From contig CAMKRZ010000026.1 of assembly GCA_946415315.1 (NCBI GenBank), positions 1-42,913 on the forward strand: a DNA stretch of 42,913 bases. The letters are read 5' to 3'. Source of the DNA: an uncultured Lachnoclostridium sp. (GTDB taxonomy: Bacteria > Bacillota > Clostridia > Lachnospirales > Lachnospiraceae). The notes beneath the pieces are model-generated. The model made no database searches. It had not been told where the DNA came from and saw only the letters and a program-made list of their open reading frames with translations. Of the stretch, positions 28,415 to 36,273 are shown piece after piece. A program made the translations under genes and the position numbers. Position 1 is the stretch's first letter. Every line of letters starts with the position of its first letter.

Positions 28415-31062
28415 GGACGTTTCAGGTCACGGGCATGAGCTGCGCAGCCTGCAGCGCCAGGGTGGAGAAGGCGGTCTCGGGAGTGCCGGGCGTGGACTCC
28501 TGTTCCGTCAATCTTCTGACCGGCGTACTGGGCGTGGAGGGCGATGCGGCCGATGAGGCGGTCGTCGAAGCGGTGGAGAAGGCCGGATACGGCTGCCGCC
28601 CGAAGCACGCGAGGACCGCGGAGAGCGGTACAGCAGGAAATCCGGGCGATGACATGACATCCGGTCTGCGGGAAGGAGCGTCTCCGGCTGAAGTCGGCGA
28701 TGCCGCCCGATCGGACGGGGAAGTGATGGAAGACCCGGGCAGGAGAGATTTCCTTGCGCTTCGGAAAATTCTGTTCATCTCCATTGGTTTTGTTCTGGTG
28801 CTCATGTATATCTCCATGGGCTATCATATGTTTTCGGCACCGCTGCCCGCTTGGCTGCGGAAACCGTCGGTCAATGCCCTGTGTCAGGCGGCGCTCGCCC
28901 TGACGGTAATGGGAATCAATTTCCGTTTCTTCCGAAACGGCGTGCGCGGCGTTCTTCACGGGGCACCCAACATGGACACGCTGGTTGCCCTCGGCTCGTT
29001 TGCCTCATTTGCCTACAGTGCGGCCCGAACCGTGCAGATTCTGGCGGGCGCGGACGGACACATGATCCTCGGCGACCTCTACTATGATTCCGCGGCAATG
29101 ATCCTGGCGCTGATCACGGTAGGCAAGACGCTCGAGGCGTACTCGAAGGGACGCACAACCGATGCGCTGAAGGGGTTGTATGATCTTGCGCCGAAGCAGG
29201 CGAAGCTGCTCCGCGGAGGGGAGACCGTGACGGTACCGATCGCGGAGGTACAGGTCGGCGACGTGTTTGTCGTGTTTCCGGGCGACGCGATCCCTACGGA
29301 CGGGATCATCCTGGAGGGGGAGAGCGCGATCGACGAATCCGCACTTACGGGCGAGAGCATCCCCGTGGACAAGAAGCCCGGCGATACGGTCGCGACGGCG
29401 ACAATGAACCGCTCCGGGCATCTCACCTGCCGCGCGACGGCAGTCGGGGAGGACAACACGCTTGCGAAGATCATCCGCATGGTGAGCGACGCGACGGCCA
29501 CGAAAGCGCCGATCGCGAAACTGGCTGACCGTGTTGCGGGTATCTTCGTGCCGGTGGTGATCGCGATCGCGGTCATCACGATCGCAATCTGGCTGCTGGT
29601 CGGACAGGAGTTCGGATATGCGCTCGCGCGGGGCGTTTCCGTTCTGGTCATCAGCTGTCCGTGTGCGCTCGGACTGGCGACGCCCGTGGCCATCATGGTC
29701 GGCAGCGGCGTCGGCGCAAAGCACGGGATCCTGTACAAAAGTGCGACGGCGCTTGAGCAGTGCGGCCGCGTGGAGATCGTAGCCCTCGACAAGACCGGAA
29801 CCATCACCGAGGGAGAGCCGAAGGTGACCGGCATAGTTCCCGCGGAGGGCGTGACCGAGGAAGAACTTCTCGCGTATGCATCCGTTGCGGAGCAGTACAG
29901 CGAGCATCCGATCGCGAAGGCGATCCTCGCCCGAAGCGCGGAGCTCGGGACAGGTGCTACATGCGCATGTGAGAGCACGGAAACACAGACTGACTGCGAG
30001 TGCGTAGCGTGCCCGGTCGAACGCGAATCGACGGGATCCTTTAGGGCGCTCTCCGGAAACGGGGTGCGCGGTCTGTATAAAGGCAAAGAACTGCTCGGCG
30101 GAAATCTCCGGCTACTCGGGGAGATCGTGCCGAAGGAAAGCTCGGAGGCGGCGGAGGCAGCTTCCCGCGAGGGCGGAACACCCGTATTTTTCGCGTATGA
30201 CGGGAAGTACATGGGGATGATCGTCGTGGCGGATACGCTGCGCAGCGACAGCACCGGCGCTGTATCACTTCTTCGGAAAATGGGGATCACCGCGGTCTGT
30301 GTGACCGGTGACCGCAGAGCGACCGCGGAGTATATCGCGGCGCGCGCGGGAATCACCGAGGTGCGCGCGGAAGTGCTGCCGGACGGCAAACAGCAGGTTA
30401 TCCGGGAATTGCAGGGTAGCGATGCCGGGCACCGGATCGTGGCCATGGTAGGCGACGGGATCAACGATGCGCCGGCGCTCACCGCGGCGGATATCGGCAT
30501 AGCGATCGGCGCCGGAACGGAGGTTGCCATCGATGCGGGCGACGTTGTGGTCATGAATCGCAGGCTCACGGACGTGTGTGCCGCGATCGACCTCGGGCGA
30601 AACACGCTGCGCATCATTCGCCAGAACCTGTGGTGGGCATTTTTCTATAACGTGATCGGCATCCCGCTCGCGGCCGGTGCGTTCGTCCGGCTGTTCGGCT
30701 GGGAACTGAATCCGATGTTCGGAGCCGCGGCAATGAGCCTTTCGAGTTTCTGCGTCGTGATGAACGCGCTGCGGCTGAACCGGTGGAAGTATCCGGCGAT
30801 CGCGGAAACCGGTGAGGAGCCGGAAAACAATACATCAAGTAGTTCGGAGGAGACAAAAATGAAGGAAGTTACGTTGCAGATCAAGGGAATGATGTGCATG
30901 CACTGTGAGGCGCGCGTGAAGAAATGTCTGGAGGAGATCCCTGGCGTTGCAGGGGCGATCGTGAGCCACGAGAAGGGCACTGCCGTGGTGACTGCGGAGG
31001 AATGCGTTTCCGAGGCTGCGATGGCTGCCGCGGTGACTGCACAGGGCTATGAGGTAGTCTGA
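28411..31062 (+). CDS. copA: Copper P1B-type ATPase CopA with C-terminal CopZ-like domain
   Basis: 883 residues. A cytosolic heavy-metal domain at the N-terminus has GMSCAAC (residues 8-14). A charged linker leads to eight membrane helices. The actuator loop has LTGES, the ion site is the CPC motif at 416-418 in SCPCALG, the phosphorylated Asp460 is in DKTGT, and the His-Pro pair is in SEHPIAK. GDGINDAPAL is the hinge. These mark a Cu(I) exporter. After the last helix, a Ser/Glu linker leads to a second metal domain, residues 817-883, with GMMCMHC. An internal GGAGGAG and ATG at 30859 could also give that domain as a free 67-residue chaperone. The nucleotide-binding domain carries an unusual insert with five Cys (518, 520, 529, 531, 534). 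Confidence 0.93.
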   Translation: MRTFQVTGMSCAACSARVEKAVSGVPGVDSCSVNLLTGVLGVEGDAADEAVVEAVEKAGYGCRPKHARTAESGTAGNPGDDMTSGLREGASPAEVGDAARSDGEVMEDPGRRDFLALRKILFISIGFVLVLMYISMGYHMFSAPLPAWLRKPSVNALCQAALALTVMGINFRFFRNGVRGVLHGAPNMDTLVALGSFASFAYSAARTVQILAGADGHMILGDLYYDSAAMILALITVGKTLEAYSKGRTTDALKGLYDLAPKQAKLLRGGETVTVPIAEVQVGDVFVVFPGDAIPTDGIILEGESAIDESALTGESIPVDKKPGDTVATATMNRSGHLTCRATAVGEDNTLAKIIRMVSDATATKAPIAKLADRVAGIFVPVVIAIAVITIAIWLLVGQEFGYALARGVSVLVISCPCALGLATPVAIMVGSGVGAKHGILYKSATALEQCGRVEIVALDKTGTITEGEPKVTGIVPAEGVTEEELLAYASVAEQYSEHPIAKAILARSAELGTGATCACESTETQTDCECVACPVERESTGSFRALSGNGVRGLYKGKELLGGNLRLLGEIVPKESSEAAEAASREGGTPVFFAYDGKYMGMIVVADTLRSDSTGAVSLLRKMGITAVCVTGDRRATAEYIAARAGITEVRAEVLPDGKQQVIRELQGSDAGHRIVAMVGDGINDAPALTAADIGIAIGAGTEVAIDAGDVVVMNRRLTDVCAAIDLGRNTLRIIRQNLWWAFFYNVIGIPLAAGAFVRLFGWELNPMFGAAAMSLSSFCVVMNALRLNRWKYPAIAETGEEPENNTSSSSEETKMKEVTLQIKGMMCMHCEARVKKCLEEIPGVAGAIVSHEKGTAVVTAEECVSEAAMAAAVTAQGYEVV
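30846..31062 (+). CDS. copZ: Possible internal start yielding free CopZ-like copper chaperone
   Basis: Inside copA, GGAGGAG (30846-30852) stands eight bases before an in-frame ATG at 30859. Translation from it would give 67 residues, the exact size of a CopZ chaperone, with the copper-binding GMMCMHC. The ribosome site encodes SSEE within the linker, which could serve both functions. The likely history is loss of a stop codon between copA and copZ. Expression of the short form is inferred only. The coordinates here include the ribosome site. Confidence 0.5.
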
Positions 31063-31176
31063 GCCGGTTGCGGGGAGCGAAAGGCCGACGAAGCTTGCGG
31101 AGCGTAAGCATACAGCCGGAACACCGAGGCTTTCGGGAAACCACAGTCAGACAGAAAAGCAAGGGAGGAACTTGCC

Positions 31177-32565
31177 ATGCCTGCTTCGGAAAATGTCCTG
31201 CAGCTGTTGATCAACCTTGACCGGAAACCGGTCGATGTGCCGGACTATGAGTGCCGGTACAGGCTTGCCGGATCGGTTTTTACGCTTTCGCTGTTCCCGG
31301 CGGGAGTCGCAGTCGACTGGGAGAACGGAGACTCCTGGTTTGAGGAAGGGAACAAGCCGAAGAAGGAGTTCTACGATGCCATCCGCAAGGCGTACCTTCT
31401 GTACGCGCTGTATTTCGGAGACGGGCTGAAGATTGAGCGATACACTGTCGTGCGGAACGGGATCCCGGAGAGCGCGATCTCGTACGGGGATGACGCTTAT
31501 TTTCCGTATATGGAGTCCGTGATCCTTCCGGGCGATCTGGTTCCCGAGGCGGGAGAGTTCAAGGCCGGGAAGATTTTCCGAAACCGCACGATCATGAATT
31601 TCATCGCGAAGAGCAAGCGGAGCGACGACCAGTCCGACACGAAGATCACGGCCTTGTTCGCGTATCTTCACAGCAAATGCAGGCGGTATGAGGTCGACCG
31701 TTTTCTGAATCTCTGGACAGCGATCAACGCGCTGTACAACGACATCAACCGCAGGCATACCAGATGGGTGGAAAAACTGGTCGACGAGATACCGGACGAT
31801 GTTCTCGAAAAACTGGATCTGCCGAGGGACCTGGTTCGGCAATTCTATACGGTCTCGGACAAGAACGACAACGAACCGAGGCGTCTGCTGATCAAACTCG
31901 TGCATGAGCGGCTGGATATTCACAGGAAAAACAAGAGCAGCAAGGAGCGCGTCCTGAAGGAGTTTTCCGGCGAGGACACGGACTTCTTTACCCCGTTCGT
32001 AACCGGGTATTCCGAGAGGAACGAAGGCCGGATGACGCCGGGGAGCAGGAGAGTGCCGCTTCTCGTGAAACGTTATTTCTATCGCGCGGTGCGCGCGGAC
32101 GCCGAGAGGCTCTCCGATGAGGCATCGGAGGACGAGCAGGAACTCTACCGCCGGCTGCGCGTGTGGGCGGACAGAACGGGCGCGTCTCTCTTCTCGTTTC
32201 TGACGTTTGAACTGCCGTATTACAAGCGAAACTATTACATTCACGGAAGCGAGGCGACGCTGCTGATCTCAAGCTGCTACAGCATCAGCTATCTCGCCTG
32301 CCTGAACTATTTCATGGAGCGTTTTCTGGAGAAGTACATACCGCAGATGTTCAATCCGCGGAAAATGGACGCGCTGATCCGCGAGTACCATCAGCTTCTG
32401 TATGAGGAGCGGAAGGGGCTGGATGACGTGTACACATCGGAAAATGAGGCGGACCCGAAGACGATGACGGCGATCGCGATCGCCAAGCTGTTGAGAAATC
32501 AGTTGAAAAAAGATTACGCGAAGGCCGAATGGATGGCGAAGGTGAAGGGTTTACTGCCGAACTAG
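31177..32565 (+). CDS. HEPN-like protein with RX4H motif
   Basis: 462 residues, soluble; the ATG at 31177 follows GGGAGGAA. No family is recognised for the N-terminal 155 residues, which look alpha/beta (FTLSLFPAGVAVDWENGDSWF). From about residue 160 the protein is helical. The segment YEVDRFLNLWTAINALYNDI is the kind of helix that opens Apea-type and related HEPN domains. Near the C-terminus KRNYYIHG holds Arg351 and His356, an RX4H of the kind that forms the RNase site of HEPN toxins and defence effectors, followed by a hydrophobic helix pair (LLISSCYSISYLACLNYF). A function in RNA cleavage is therefore plausible but unproven. It lies 114 bases after copA and 127 before the unknown gene at 32693. 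Confidence 0.62.
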   Translation: MPASENVLQLLINLDRKPVDVPDYECRYRLAGSVFTLSLFPAGVAVDWENGDSWFEEGNKPKKEFYDAIRKAYLLYALYFGDGLKIERYTVVRNGIPESAISYGDDAYFPYMESVILPGDLVPEAGEFKAGKIFRNRTIMNFIAKSKRSDDQSDTKITALFAYLHSKCRRYEVDRFLNLWTAINALYNDINRRHTRWVEKLVDEIPDDVLEKLDLPRDLVRQFYTVSDKNDNEPRRLLIKLVHERLDIHRKNKSSKERVLKEFSGEDTDFFTPFVTGYSERNEGRMTPGSRRVPLLVKRYFYRAVRADAERLSDEASEDEQELYRRLRVWADRTGASLFSFLTFELPYYKRNYYIHGSEATLLISSCYSISYLACLNYFMERFLEKYIPQMFNPRKMDALIREYHQLLYEERKGLDDVYTSENEADPKTMTAIAIAKLLRNQLKKDYAKAEWMAKVKGLLPN

Positions 32566-32588
32566 AGCGGTTGCAGTGAAGTATTTTG

Positions 32589-32617
32589 TTGCATTTGCCC
32601 CGGTAAAATAATATAAT
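32589..32617 (+). promoter_or_regulatory. Promoter of the gene at 32693
   Basis: TTGCAT at 32589-32594, a 17-base spacer, and a perfect TATAAT at 32612-32617. The leader is about 70 bases. Confidence 0.6.
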
Positions 32618-32692
32618 GGTTTCAGGGTCGGAACGCCCCGGAAATCCGCGGCGCCGAGACCGAAAACGGAACATGAGAACGGAGGGTTTGCC

Positions 32693-33205
32693 ATGTTAGA
32701 GAGTATTTTGAAGCGCCTGCTCCGCAGAAAAGTGGAACAGAAGGTAGAGAAGGTCGTAGACGAAGCACTGGACTCGGCGTTAAACAGCAATAAAGCGGCT
32801 CAGCCGACCGCGGGTGCCACACAGCCGGCAAGCCCGGTTGCCGCAGCGGACTACAGCGCAAACGCCGGTGCGGAGAACGAGTGGGATATCGAGTACAATC
32901 ACGATGTCAACTATTTCCGCCAGATCATCCAGGCGAATTTCCCGGAGTATGCGCTCGAGGAAAATGTTCCTTTTGCTCAGCTGGTGCCCGGTGTGAGATA
33001 TCAGTATCCGCCGTACACGTTTGTGATGCGCAAGAACGGCCAGATCGCGCTGGTCATTTCGCTTCAGAGCAAGTATTCCTACAAGAAGGGCCTGCACACC
33101 ATGTGCGAATGGAAGGCTCAGCTGCGTCATATCAATTTCTTTATTGAGTATCCGGATCGCCCTGAGTACGTGATCAACCGGATTCGTCAGTATCTTGCTT
33201 TTTAA
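32693..33205 (+). CDS. Unknown 170-residue protein
   Basis: I do not recognise this protein. The ATG at 32693 follows GGAGGG. The first 35 residues are a charged amphipathic helix (LKRLLRRKVEQKVEKVVDEA), followed by an Ala/Pro/Gln linker to residue 65. The rest is an alpha/beta domain of about 105 residues: a helix (NYFRQIIQANFPEYAL), then YTFVMRKNGQIALVISLQSK, which resembles the core beta hairpin of PD-(D/E)xK nucleases but lacks the acidic residues, and then CEWKAQLRHINFFIEYP and a final helix. If related to nucleases it would be inactive. The N-terminal helix suggests oligomerisation or membrane-surface binding. It has its own promoter and lies 256 bases before the reverse transcriptase gene, separated by a structured region. 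Confidence 0.6.
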   Translation: MLESILKRLLRRKVEQKVEKVVDEALDSALNSNKAAQPTAGATQPASPVAAADYSANAGAENEWDIEYNHDVNYFRQIIQANFPEYALEENVPFAQLVPGVRYQYPPYTFVMRKNGQIALVISLQSKYSYKKGLHTMCEWKAQLRHINFFIEYPDRPEYVINRIRQYLAF

Positions 33206-33224
33206 GCGGTAAATCGAGAAGAAC

Positions 33225-33398
33225 GCAAGTTTCTTGCACCTGCAGCGGGCGCAGCATGGTCCTTGTGGTACTGTGCAGGTAGTCGGCCATGTATCGTTCG
33301 GTAAGATTGGAAATTTTCCAATCTTTAAGGTTTTCTTCTCTTTACAATTGGCTCACCGGAAGCGCTGTTTTTCGCGTGAAAACAAAGGCTTCCCGGTG
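33225..33398 (+). ncRNA. Structured region upstream of the reverse transcriptase
   Basis: In the 256-base gap before the reverse transcriptase I find four stems in series: GCAAG/CTTGC (33225-33237); ACCTGCA/TGCAGGT (33238-33280, 29-base loop); AAGATTGGAAA and its perfect complement around one T (33303-33325); and a long imperfect hairpin with CACCGGAAGC (33354-33363) pairing to GCTTCCCGGTG (33388-33398, one bulge), with an inner stem TGTTTT/AAAACA (33366-33371 and 33379-33384). The third, with the T-rich bases after it, may be a terminator or a palindromic operator. Whether this is a separate RNA, the 5' UTR of the enzyme, or a template is unknown. It contains no good open frame. Confidence 0.45.
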
Positions 33399-33461
33399 GG
33401 CGAGTTTGTTTGTGCGGATGTGTTTTGCAAGTGTGGGAAAATGTGATCGGAGGCGTGCGGC

Positions 33462-34748
33462 ATGGAGTTTCTGGAAGGTCTTGTGAACCCCGAAGCGTGG
33501 GAGAAGTACTACGCGTACTGCTCCGGCCGGGACTTTATCACGATACCGGAACTGCGGCAGCTGCGCCGACAGATTGACCGTAAGGAATACCTGGAGCCAA
33601 TCACGCGCTGGCTGGAGGAGCGGCATTTTCCGTGTGCGACGCGCAAGGTCATCAACAAAATGGGGACGAGCCGGAAGCGCATCGTGTATACGTACGAAGG
33701 CGGGGAGCGACTGATCCTGAAGATCATCGCATATCATCTGCATGAGTATGACAGCTTGTTCGCGCCGAACCTGTTTTCGTTCCGCATGGGCAGCGGCGTG
33801 CGCAAGGCGATGACGCATCTGCGGTACCGTCCGAACATGGGAGACCGGTTCGTCTACAAGGTGGATATCCACGATTATTTTAACTCGATCGATCCGGAGC
33901 GGATCCTGCCGATGGTGCGGGATGCGCTCGGCGGAGAACCGCTTCTGTGCGGGCTGATCGAGGAACTGCTGACCAACCCTCGTGTGTATTGTGACGACGA
34001 GTTTGTGGAGGAGCGCAAGGGGATCATGGCCGGCGTGCCGGTCTCGTCATTTCTCGCCAACCTTTTTCTGAGCGGGATGGACTGGCACATGCATCGCGAG
34101 GGCGTGCTGTACGCGAGGTACGCGGATGATATCATCGTGTTCGCGGACAGCGAGGAGGAGATGCTCCGGCACAAGGCATACATCCTCGATACGCTCACTT
34201 CGTTAGGACTCACCATCAACCCTAAGAAGGAGTTCATAAGCCGCCCGGGGGAGGCTTGGACATTCCTCGGGGTGCAATACCACAATGGTGAGTTCGACGT
34301 CTCGGAGGCCTCCGCCGAGAAGATGAAAGGGAAAATGCGCCGCAAGGCGCGCCGGTTCCGCCGCTTGATGACGCGCGGCAAAAAGCCGCTTGGTGTGGAG
34401 GAAGCGATCCGGCGTTACATTGCGGTTTTCAATATCAAATTTTACGACAACCGGCGGGACAACGAACTGACCTGGGCAAGATGGTTCTTTCCGATCATCA
34501 CGACGTCGAAGACGCTGTCCGAGCTGGACCGGTACATGGTTGAATGCATTCGCTTCATCCGCACGGGAAAGCACACGAAGGGCAATTACCGGCTCCGTTA
34601 TGACACGATCAAGTCTTACGGATTCCGCAGCCTTGTGCATGAGTACTACCGCGGACTGAAAGCACCCGGGGAAGAGGGTCAGCAGGCGGCGTTCGATTCG
34701 GAAGAACTGCCGTGTGAGGCGGAATTGCCGGAGGAATGTGTGGATTGA
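33462..34748 (+). CDS. Free-standing reverse transcriptase
   Basis: 428 residues. The ATG at 33462 follows GGAGG. Conserved blocks: FSFRMGSGVRKAMTHL (RT2-like), YKVDIHDYFNSID with catalytic Asp135, GIMAGVPVSSFLANLFL (block 4), YARYADDIIVFA with the catalytic YADD at 220-223, TINPKKE and WTFLGVQY. Block 4 lacks the Gln of retroviral and group II enzymes (usually LPQGSPLS). The C-terminal 130 residues, with WARWFFPIITTSKTLSELDRYM and TGKHTKGNYRLRYDTIKSYGFRSLVHEYYR split over two helices, look like the thumb/maturase-like end of group II-related enzymes. There is no HNH endonuclease and no intron domain around it. It lacks the retron VTG and NAxxH marks and the SQ of diversity-generating enzymes. 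The gene may be a domesticated or defence-type enzyme. Confidence 0.9.
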   Translation: MEFLEGLVNPEAWEKYYAYCSGRDFITIPELRQLRRQIDRKEYLEPITRWLEERHFPCATRKVINKMGTSRKRIVYTYEGGERLILKIIAYHLHEYDSLFAPNLFSFRMGSGVRKAMTHLRYRPNMGDRFVYKVDIHDYFNSIDPERILPMVRDALGGEPLLCGLIEELLTNPRVYCDDEFVEERKGIMAGVPVSSFLANLFLSGMDWHMHREGVLYARYADDIIVFADSEEEMLRHKAYILDTLTSLGLTINPKKEFISRPGEAWTFLGVQYHNGEFDVSEASAEKMKGKMRRKARRFRRLMTRGKKPLGVEEAIRRYIAVFNIKFYDNRRDNELTWARWFFPIITTSKTLSELDRYMVECIRFIRTGKHTKGNYRLRYDTIKSYGFRSLVHEYYRGLKAPGEEGQQAAFDSEELPCEAELPEECVD

Positions 34749-34797
34749 GAGATGCGGCATGTCAGTGCGGGCATACGGCCGCAGAAGGGAGACAGAG

Positions 34798-36273
34798 ATG
34801 ACAGTTAATCGAAAAATGTGTTTCCTTGCCATTGTTATGGCGTTGATCGTTGCGTTGACGGCCTGCGGTTCCCGCGGCGGCAACGACAGCGAAGTGACGC
34901 CGACGCCGACCAACGAAGTGAAGATCACGCCGACAACGGAGCCGACGAGCGAGCCGACGCCTACGGAAACGGCAACGCCGGAGCCGTCGCCGACGGAAAC
35001 ACCGACGCCGGAACCGTCACCGACGGAAACACCGACGCCGGAGCCTACGCCGACCGAGACACCGACCCCGGAGCCGACGGAGGAGGTCACGCCCACGCCG
35101 GAGATTAGTGGTGAGCCGACGCCGGAGTTGACAGGAGAAGTCACGCCCACGCCGGAGATCAGCGGAGAGCCGACGCCGGAATTGACCGGAGAAATCACGC
35201 CCACGCCGGAGATCAGCGGAGAGCCGACACCGGAGCTGACCGGGGAGGTGACGCCTACACCGGAGATCAGTGGTGAGCCGACACCGACGGAGGAAATGAC
35301 ACCTACGCCCACGCCGATGGACGAGGTATCCTACCGCCTGCCGGGTCTTGTCTGCATCACGAAGGCGGACAGCATTTTCATGGAACCGTCGGACAGGTCA
35401 AACAAACTGGACGACGTACAGGTCGGCGAGTTTGTGGCGCTGGACATTGACACGAGCGTGTTTGACGATGACTTCTGGTATCGCGTTCAGTACCACAACG
35501 GACTGTACGGATATCTGCGCAAGGAGTCCACAACGGAGGAGATTCCTTCTTCCTGTATCGCGCTTGGACGTGAGTTCCTTGTCGCGGACGACTGGGTATC
35601 GCTGTGCGACGCGATCCGAAACGATTACTGGGAGACTCACGCGGGCACTCCCGAAGACGGGTATACCGAGCAGAAGGCTTCGTCGGACGACGCTGCCATA
35701 GCCGGGTATCGCTCGCGCTACAATTTTGAAAACGGCAGGAGCGATCGCCAGTTCCGGGAACTTGTCTACGCGGAGATCGTCGAGACAAAGCTCTACTTCA
35801 ATCCGAGCATAGACGGACCGAATTTTGTGGCGTACGGCTATGATGCGAACGGGCAGATGGTGTACCTTCAGGAGTTCATCCTTCACGAGGAGGAAGGCGC
35901 GACACCGTATGACAGCTGCAGGATCGCTACGGATCAGAGCGGAGAGCGTGTCAAGGAATACGAGTTCGTGTACAAGGGCGACAACCGCGTGCTGATCTTC
36001 GGAGAAGAGCATAAGCCGGAGGCGGTTCTGACCTACCACTACAACGAGGATGTCAGCGTGAGAATGCCGTATTGCAGACTCGACATGTTCTACAACGAAG
36101 AGGAGCTTCTGACGCACATCGTGATGACGTTCCCGGGAGATAATTCGCATCGGTACAACACATTTTTCGAGTACGAAACAGACAGCGCGACACTGATCCG
36201 CATGGTGGAGATCGCGGAGCGTACCGCCGACGGAGAGTGGACGGTACAGTCCGGGCGCGAGTTGGTGAAGTAA
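34798..36273 (+). CDS. Lipoprotein with 18-residue tandem repeats and SH3-like domain
   Basis: 491 residues. The ATG at 34798 follows AAGGGAG, 49 bases after the reverse transcriptase stop. The signal peptide ends in lipobox LTAC (about residue 22). Residues 32-95 are Thr/Pro/Glu-rich. From base 35083 a 54-base unit (EVTPTPEISGEPTPELTG) is repeated three times with a fourth partial copy. Residues 183-242 look like a bacterial SH3 domain (ADSIFMEPSDRSNKLDDVQVGEFVALD...WYRVQYHNGLYGYLRKES), which normally binds wall peptides. The last 240 residues are beta-rich and unknown. It ends at the terminator 36312-36341. It may share a transcript with the reverse transcriptase, though a link in function is not implied. 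Confidence 0.78.
   Translation: MTVNRKMCFLAIVMALIVALTACGSRGGNDSEVTPTPTNEVKITPTTEPTSEPTPTETATPEPSPTETPTPEPSPTETPTPEPTPTETPTPEPTEEVTPTPEISGEPTPELTGEVTPTPEISGEPTPELTGEITPTPEISGEPTPELTGEVTPTPEISGEPTPTEEMTPTPTPMDEVSYRLPGLVCITKADSIFMEPSDRSNKLDDVQVGEFVALDIDTSVFDDDFWYRVQYHNGLYGYLRKESTTEEIPSSCIALGREFLVADDWVSLCDAIRNDYWETHAGTPEDGYTEQKASSDDAAIAGYRSRYNFENGRSDRQFRELVYAEIVETKLYFNPSIDGPNFVAYGYDANGQMVYLQEFILHEEEGATPYDSCRIATDQSGERVKEYEFVYKGDNRVLIFGEEHKPEAVLTYHYNEDVSVRMPYCRLDMFYNEEELLTHIVMTFPGDNSHRYNTFFEYETDSATLIRMVEIAERTADGEWTVQSGRELVK
35083..35290 (+). repeat. 54-bp tandem repeat in a lipoprotein gene
   Basis: Three full units start at 35083, 35137 and 35191, with a partial fourth from 35245. Each encodes E(V/I)TPTPEISGEPTPELTG. 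Copies differ by a few synonymous bases, so the expansion is recent but not brand new. Confidence 0.85.

Follow-up and report, generated by a model that had tools for sequence, protein, structure and literature searches.

A probable tripartite DRT unit of UG26 reverse transcriptase, RT-5 RNA and Vsr-like accessory protein in Lachnospiraceae

Described DRT systems and the layout of the locus

DRT10 is composed of a UG17 reverse transcriptase (RT), a SLATT protein and a ncRNA (PMC12632851). In the DRT10 ncRNA small stem-loops accompany a large central stem and the template follows a stem-loop, and DRT10 templates are marked by an A-B-A' pattern (PMC12632851). DRT9 consists of a UG28 RT and a ncRNA which has a U-rich template near its last stem-loop (PMC12483538). 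UG17, Drt3a and Drt9 have been assigned in the literature to the Class 2 UG RTs, and telomerase-like repeat synthesis has been reported for DRT3, DRT9 and DRT10.

The locus examined here is 31177-34748 on the + strand of a 42,913-nt stretch from an uncultured Lachnoclostridium sp.; the whole stretch is called the window. It carries three ORFs on the + strand, with a ncRNA between the second and the third.

31177..32565, + strand: orphan gene of 462 aa, earlier called HEPN-like, outside the unit (0/54 loci, 1/299 genomes)
32693..33205, + strand: accessory protein of 170 aa, with an N-terminal helix (residues 3-30) and a Vsr/COG2852-like domain (about 69-170), from the RTasCOG2852 match and the fold
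33216..33340, + strand: ncRNA, with the Rfam RT-5 core at 33234-33336 and closing stem P1 as an extension of it, from RF03026, fold and covariation
33216..33223, + strand: 5' arm of closing stem P1, GAGAAGAA, partner of 33333-33340 and not covered by the Rfam model
33225..33237, + strand: P2, small hairpin whose length varies among relatives, from covariation
33238..33244, + strand: 5' arm of pseudoknot P3, pairs with 33274-33280, from covariation
33246..33300, + strand: long hairpin P5/P4/P3b with variable loop V (about 33262-33268), in the Rfam structure
33274..33280, + strand: 3' arm of pseudoknot P3, pairs with 33238-33244, from covariation
33304..33324, + strand: P6 hairpin, at the site of the DRT10 stem-loop that precedes the template, from the Rfam structure and fold
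33324..33332, + strand: strip T, TTTAAGGTT, flanked by P6 and the 3' arm of P1; predicted template, placed by the DRT10 layout
33333..33340, + strand: 3' arm of closing stem P1, TTCTTCTC, pairs with 33216-33223, from helix score and covariation
33462..34748, + strand: UG26 reverse transcriptase of 428 aa (PADLOC RT_UG26, E 4.7e-154)

The accessory protein, the RT-5 ncRNA and the UG26 RT probably constitute an uncharacterised tripartite DRT, for which a DRT9/DRT10-like working is proposed. Like DRT10 it is built of ncRNA, accessory protein and RT. However, the RT is UG26 and not UG17 (E 4.7e-154 vs 1.9e-28), the partner is Vsr-like in place of SLATT, and in most loci the RNA lies between the accessory gene and the RT, has a pseudoknot and offers a shorter strip. 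In a UG17 locus (L087) we read the RNA layout as last hairpin, strip and closing stem, as in the RT-5 unit. The likeness to DRT9 (PMC12483538) is a ncRNA template near the last stem-loop, predicted in position here; the template there is poly-U, whereas the one predicted here is UUUAAGG-like. The RT family also differs from that of DRT9 (Drt9 model 7.1e-22 vs UG26 4.7e-154).

The locus had been proposed in the initial annotation as a candidate new system. A functional test of UG26 was not found in the literature. The RT and the accessory protein are members of the UG26 and RTasCOG2852 entries of PADLOC (the library searched holds protein models only), and the RNA is a member of Rfam RT-5 (RF03026), to whose consensus structure the P1, P2 and P3 pairs are additional. 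Since each of the three families has such an entry, the unit is not wholly new.

The reverse transcriptase and its partner protein

Among PADLOC models the RT best matches RT_UG26, and the runner-up UG model is RT_UG4 (2.8e-30); the next-scoring RT groups are UG4, UG27, UG17 (DRT10), Drt3a and Drt9. Each of the 46 RTs in the alignment also gives an RT_UG26 match at E <= 1e-60. The YADD motif is intact at residues 220-223 (codon 220 at 34119). Tyr380 in the C-terminal part is invariant in 46/46 aligned RTs and is a candidate for the protein primer of the RT. The predicted fold has a pLDDT of 88.2, and the first-ranked DRT in a Foldseek search was the DRT9 structure 9vma (E 3.9e-14). In NCBIfam the RT falls under the cut-off for all 10 models matched, which include group II intron, retron, Drt2-5 and AbiA models. 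A group II intron RT is ruled out (maturase model 108.4 vs 300 bits cut-off) and so is a retron RT (St85 model 55.1 vs 235 bits). The enzyme had been set apart from the retron and CRISPR-linked classes at the outset, and this was borne out, the CRISPR-linked RT models of PADLOC scoring far lower than UG26. Phage and plasmid records gave no match to the RT at E <= 1e-50.

The 170-aa protein matches RTasCOG2852 at E 1.9e-7, as do 43/58 relatives (best E 9.6e-64); the profile is taken here as RT-associated and COG2852-like, not as UG26-specific. It was the sole PADLOC match of the protein and its relatives, and no SLATT family was matched in Pfam. The predicted fold is Vsr-like with a moderate Z. 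The active-site D and E of Vsr/COG2852 do not occur together at the aligned columns in any of 58 relatives, and the window copy has neither, so that the earlier description of a degenerate nuclease-like protein holds in outline. In L012 a TIR is fused to the accessory domain (TIR_2, E 3.7e-11), and this complete fusion was seen only once.

The RNA and its predicted template

The hairpin-rich stretch that had been pointed out before the RT is confirmed as a structured RNA. RF03026 matches 33234-33336 with 75.5 bits (gathering cut-off 45.7), the folding z of 33214-33342 is -4.63 with 0/200 shuffles equally stable, and covariation in 46 aligned RNAs far exceeds that of shuffles; slid controls for covariation are partly beaten by construction, because the structure was derived from the same RNAs. 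The 49-RNA alignment leaves aside L024 and L044, which have long inserts, and the 46-RNA alignment additionally L018, L020 and L055.

Two conserved elements of the RNA are its closing stem and a pseudoknot. The P1 helix scored higher than shuffled flanks do on average in 51/51 RNAs, a count that includes L020, L027, L028 and L052, where the helix chosen is by eye not the canonical P1. In the 46-RNA alignment 93.2% of P1 cells are paired, with both-side changes in 7/8 pairs; the percentage is biased upward because the alignment ends were trimmed by the P1 helix of each RNA (40 RNAs), the other 6 being trimmed manually. P2 is paired in 97.9% of lettered cells with both-side changes in 3/4 pairs. 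For the pseudoknot P3 the values over 46 RNAs are 99.1% of cells and 6/7 pairs, and among 25 further RNAs all 7/7 pairs form in 23 and 6/7 in 2. The consensus structure line of Rfam RT-5 is without the pairs of P1, P2 and P3. P5, P4 and P3b are paired in 83.0, 88.9 and 89.1% of cells in the same 46 RNAs and P6 in 59.4%, where the MAFFT alignment is gapped.

By analogy with DRT10, strip T is the predicted template, with a predicted cDNA repeat CCTTAAA. An A-B-A' pattern in strip T showed no excess over either control: over 41 distinct rows of 49 the score was 3.27 vs 3.33 for swapped partners and 3.17 for shuffled letters, where 413/2000 shuffles reach 3.27. Since the strip is short, A' would need to invade P1, and in the nested minimum-energy fold part of the strip is paired with the P3 5' arm. 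It is conceivable, though unlikely, that loop V, midway along the RNA, is what the RT copies instead, with A in the P4 5' arm, A' directly before P3b and the rest of the template supplied by the variable loop that separates them. A and A' are more identical in loop V than in swapped partners (3.07 vs 2.53 +/- 0.13, 0/2000; 44 distinct RNAs of 49), and L003 carries an identical T-to-C change in both copies. The excess is weaker in 25 further RNAs (2.88 vs 2.55 +/- 0.18, 123/3000; 25 of 29 used, four duplicates removed). However, A and A' pair with the adjacent 3' strands of P4 and P3b, which may itself produce the identity, and loop V is not at the template position of DRT10 or DRT9. If the loop V reading were true, 9-nt cDNA repeats templated by TGGTCCTTG would result.

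Linkage of the unit and its possible function

In different genera, and in two phyla, the RT, the partner protein and the RNA are genetically linked. Neighbourhoods of RT homologues were compared, as had been suggested earlier, in 54 related loci; these were found via six short peptide patterns, so they are close relatives and not a full census. In 52/52 assessable loci RT-5 precedes the RT on the same strand (50/50 genomes, L047 and L053; the contigs of L019 and L029 start about 60 bases before the RT). Searching 299 Lachnospiraceae genomes gave 33 RT-5 hits in 31 genomes, and a UG26-type RT is downstream on the same strand of all 33 (29 loci, the window's own, and by coordinates G225:C73, G089:C127 and G111:C58). 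The RT occurs at E <= 1e-60 in 32/299 genomes, 30 of them in common with RT-5 (Fisher 9.8e-38, a test that ignores relatedness). The RTs of G243 (UG26 by PADLOC, 9.7e-108) and G343 are UG26-like and without RT-5. Outside the family RT-5 is rare: two of 398 phylum genomes have it, the window's own and G230, both of the same family. Units are also present in Bacteroidales. RNA searches over more than 40 genomes used stricter filters.

The accessory protein was found in 24/299 genomes, 24/24 with RT-5, by a search profile built partly from genomes later counted. Its gene is absent from 9/52 assessable loci and from 6/29 RNA-anchored loci (two being the same genomes as among the 9/52), and thus is not strictly required. 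In L055 and L081 it sits between the RNA and the RT.

The initial annotation had grouped the 462-aa gene with the unknown protein, the RT and the RNA as a candidate system. The unit of RT, RNA and accessory protein is well supported, but the 462-aa gene is excluded from it: a homologue was present in 0/54 of the available flanks of related RTs and in 1/299 related genomes. The gene is absent at the equivalent site in L002 and L004 and looks like an unrelated insertion. Its HEPN-like character, read from an RX4H motif of RNase type, was not confirmed. The protein has one RX4H (R351-H356), at least one RX4H arises in 42% of its own shuffles, and no Pfam, PADLOC or NCBIfam model matched at cut-off. 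Plasmid records gave no match to the protein at E <= 1e-3. Nor were the separate promoters that had been invoked recovered: 30900-34900 holds 2 promoter-like matches vs 1.8 expected by chance, neither directly 5' of a unit gene.

In bacteria of the gut and rumen the unit is inherited as one, with a probable role in anti-viral defence. The RT would bind the RT-5 RNA, which would serve it as both scaffold and template, and would copy into repetitive single-stranded cDNA the short strip that follows the last hairpin (33324-33332); synthesis would probably be primed from the C-terminal tail of the RT, as happens in DRT9 and DRT10. Either the cDNA or the RNP may keep the accessory protein inactive, or may activate it. 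In this scheme the Vsr-like domain, which lacks a complete active site, would act as sensor, and the N-terminal part, variable among relatives (a short helix in most, TIR in L012), would exert toxicity once phage disturbs the complex.

Two other functions have to be weighed against this proposal. The accessory protein could be an active Vsr/COG2852-like endonuclease which uses or cuts cDNA or phage DNA, making this a nuclease-type DRT. Four relatives that carry E123 also have a D somewhere in columns 105-112, so a shifted active site is possible in those four; the lack of the residue pair at the aligned columns in all 58, and of both residues in the window copy, makes a nuclease highly doubtful. 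A domesticated or non-defence retroelement, with RT and RNA working for the host and the accessory protein dispensable, is quite doubtful too. It would fit the shared chromosomal neighbourhood of L002-L008 and units without accessory gene such as L007. However, RT-5 is patchy (31/299 family genomes), the neighbourhoods differ elsewhere, the unit extends to Bacteroidales, and every UG enzyme so far characterised by experiment has been implicated in phage defence (PMC12632851).

The RT-5 RNA family is now tied to one DRT type, UG26, and gains both a template open to testing and a fuller structure, with closing stem and pseudoknot. The unit is also a possible example of cDNA sensing by a nuclease-like fold that lacks a complete active site. 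Telomerase RNA is likewise pseudoknotted. We tentatively raise the possibility of a bacterial telomerase relative, in which a pseudoknotted ncRNA with a short template strip by the hairpin boundary would be copied by a small RT into telomere-like repeats (CCTTAAA predicted), the multivalent ligand of a nuclease-dead Vsr-like receptor with an exchangeable effector end (helix, zinc ribbon/Sel1 or TIR). If tandem repeats are made, telomerase-like synthesis would extend to a new group, one whose RNA is pseudoknotted.

The accessory gene, RT-5 RNA and UG26 reverse transcriptase

The accessory protein, the RT-5 RNA and the UG26-type reverse transcriptase (RT) form a real, conserved three-part unit of an already catalogued kind. 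The reading frames considered are

31177-32565, + strand: HEPN-like ORF, 462 aa
32693-33205, + strand: accessory protein ORF, 170 aa
33462-34748, + strand: RT ORF, preceded by a 256-base gap

For the RT the best PADLOC model is RT_UG26 (E 4.7e-154), followed among UG models by UG4, UG27 and UG17 (2.8e-30 to 1.9e-28). The RT carries YADD at residues 220-223, and its structural model (pLDDT 88.2) is closest to the group II intron RT 6ar3 (TM 0.72), the first DRT among the matches listed being DRT9 (9vma, E 3.9e-14). The accessory protein of 170 aa has a PADLOC RTasCOG2852 match (E 1.9e-7); since 43 of its 58 relatives match the same model (best 9.6e-64), it is a member of this family. The hairpin-rich non-coding stretch that had been noticed before the RT is confirmed as Rfam RT-5 (RF03026), which lies in the gap at 33234-33336 (75.5 bits, cut-off 45.7); the folding energy of this RNA has a z of -4.63.

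A pattern scan of a one-genome-per-species collection gave 54 related RT loci, by their titles chiefly from Clostridia and Bacteroidales of rumen and gut. Profile search placed the accessory protein 5' of the RT in 43/54, that is 43 of the 52 assessable loci, as the contigs of two (L019, L029) start about 60 bases 5' of the RT. The association proposed between the RT and the 32693 protein was upheld by the neighbourhoods. RT-5 was found in 50/50 genomes searched; among the four remaining loci it is present in L047 and L053, while L019 and L029 are not assessable, giving 52/52 assessable loci. The distance from RT-5 to the RT start is 18 to 338 bases; the exception is L055, where the RNA is 5' of the accessory gene, which separates it from the RT (626 bases; L055:5248-5972). 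On a single contig of the L042 genome (G039:C10) RT-5 occurs twice, with about 55 kb between the copies; at the second (L092) the ORF list gives a full unit with the RNA between accessory gene and RT. At L007:5651-6001 the neighbourhood is as in the window, with RNA and RT and no accessory gene.

A survey that did not start from the RT gave a similar linkage. RT-5 had 33 matches in 31 of 299 Lachnospiraceae genomes (two copies each in G089 and G225), and 29/29 fetched loci besides the window have a same-strand UG26-type RT downstream. At L064 this RT is truncated by the contig end, and L081, which is from the same genome as L055, has the accessory gene between RNA and RT. For the window's own RT-5 and the last three matches, the downstream RT was agreed by coordinates. 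Single-sequence search (E <= 1e-60) found the RT in 32/299 genomes, 30 of them RT-5 genomes; the G291 RT was detected by profile search only. G243 and G343 have a UG26-like RT and no RT-5 even at E 0.1. The G243 RT is UG26 by PADLOC, and at G243:C60:34460-35464 (L090) the RT domain lies inside a 1281-residue open frame, perhaps a fusion type of UG26, with no RT-5 nearby. A second RT in G139 is not assessable for RT-5, as its contig extends just 84 bases 5' of the RT start. The accessory protein occurs in 24/299 genomes, all of them RT-5 genomes; as its profile was built with members from these genomes, the informative part is its absence from the others. RT-5 was found in none of 14 control genomes and in 2/398 genomes of the phylum, both from the window's family and one the window's own.

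An orphan insertion before the accessory gene

The initial annotation had proposed a candidate new system of RT, RNA and protein with the HEPN-like gene as a member. The conserved unit stands; its kind is already catalogued and the HEPN-like gene lies outside it. No homologue of this gene was found in the flanks covered at the 54 related loci (0/54). It occurs in 1/299 family genomes, the window's own, with none in the 298 others (E <= 1e-8), and the 462-aa protein had no homologue in plasmids. At L002 and L004 the accessory gene directly follows a copper-ATPase gene with no gene between: L002 has 65 bases in place of window 31068-32578, and L004 has 38 in place of window 31056-32578. The RX4H motif, taken earlier as an RNase-type sign, occurs once in the protein and is expected in 42% of shuffles. 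It is concluded that 31177-32565 is an orphan insertion and a bystander to the unit.

The product of the frame 3' of the RT (34798-36273) is by eye a probable lipoprotein; it contains long Thr-Pro-Glu repeats, and its match to SH3_3 is weak (E 0.011). L012:2945-5575, 5' of RT-5 and a UG26 RT, encodes an 876-aa fusion of TPR, TIR_2 and then the accessory domain, with an N-terminus that by eye appears zinc-ribbon-like.

RT-5 structure and the predicted template

The closing stem P1, the small hairpin P2 and the pseudoknot P3 are missing from the structure line of Rfam's RT-5 model. P1 encloses the entire RNA (33216-33223 with 33333-33340); the best helix at this site in relatives (<=20 pairs) scores 28.9 on average against 14.1 for shuffled flanks, and higher in 51/51. 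In a structure-blind MAFFT alignment of 46 RNAs, P3 (33238-33244 with 33274-33280) is paired in 99.1% of cells, with both-side changes in 6/7 pairs. Over the whole structure 86.4% of cells are paired, where shuffles reach 72.6% and slid controls no more than 47.4%, and the covariation score is 0.450 against 0.220 (0/500); the structure was derived from these same RNAs and their ends trimmed by P1, which biases the P1 pairing share. In 25 further RNAs, P3 formed 7/7 pairs in 23 and 6/7 in 2, taken as the best placement over 41 positions, so that some fit is expected by chance. At L021, L023, L045 and others the P1 3' arm continues into a T tract 3' of RT-5, which makes the closing stem resemble an intrinsic terminator 5' of the RT. 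Two RT-5 RNAs (L024:5816-5972, L044:3462-3614) are about 50 nt longer than others, with extra bases around loop V, the variable loop of the central long hairpin.

A literature search on RT-5 RNA, RF03026 and the RT-5 motif found no paper. UG26 was reportedly first described in Mestre 2022 and RT-5 in Weinberg 2017, and these may already note parts of the present findings. UG26 RTs have been reported among cold-seep viruses (PMC10504277). No functional test of UG26 was found, including in the available portions of DRT papers since 2024 (PMC12632851, PMC12483538, PMC13174585), and a term search of PMC13213688 gave no match.

In DRT10, as described in PMC12632851, the template follows a stable stem-loop and has an A-B-A' repeat. 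A predicted RNA of a UG17 locus (L087), 5' of a small gene taken for a putative SLATT, folds into a closing stem, stem-loops, a last hairpin, a single-stranded strip and a 3' closing arm, and on our reading would share the RT-5 layout. In RT-5 the corresponding position is that of strip T (33324-33332), between the last hairpin P6 and the P1 3' arm. The A-A' identity of strip T (3.27) is not above that of swapped partners (3.33); shuffled letters gave 3.17 and reached it in 413/2000. UU is conserved near both ends and 2-nt re-annealing would be possible in most RNAs; this is conservation and no proof of re-annealing. Loop V shows an A-A' excess, weaker on new data, which may follow from base pairing. 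By position, strip T is favoured over loop V as the predicted template. DRT9 (PMC12483538) and DRT10 (PMC12632851) prime at the RT C-terminus, and the UG26 RT has in that region Y380, invariant in 46 RTs. By analogy with DRT9 and DRT10, from which its mechanism is inferred, the unit may work in a like manner.
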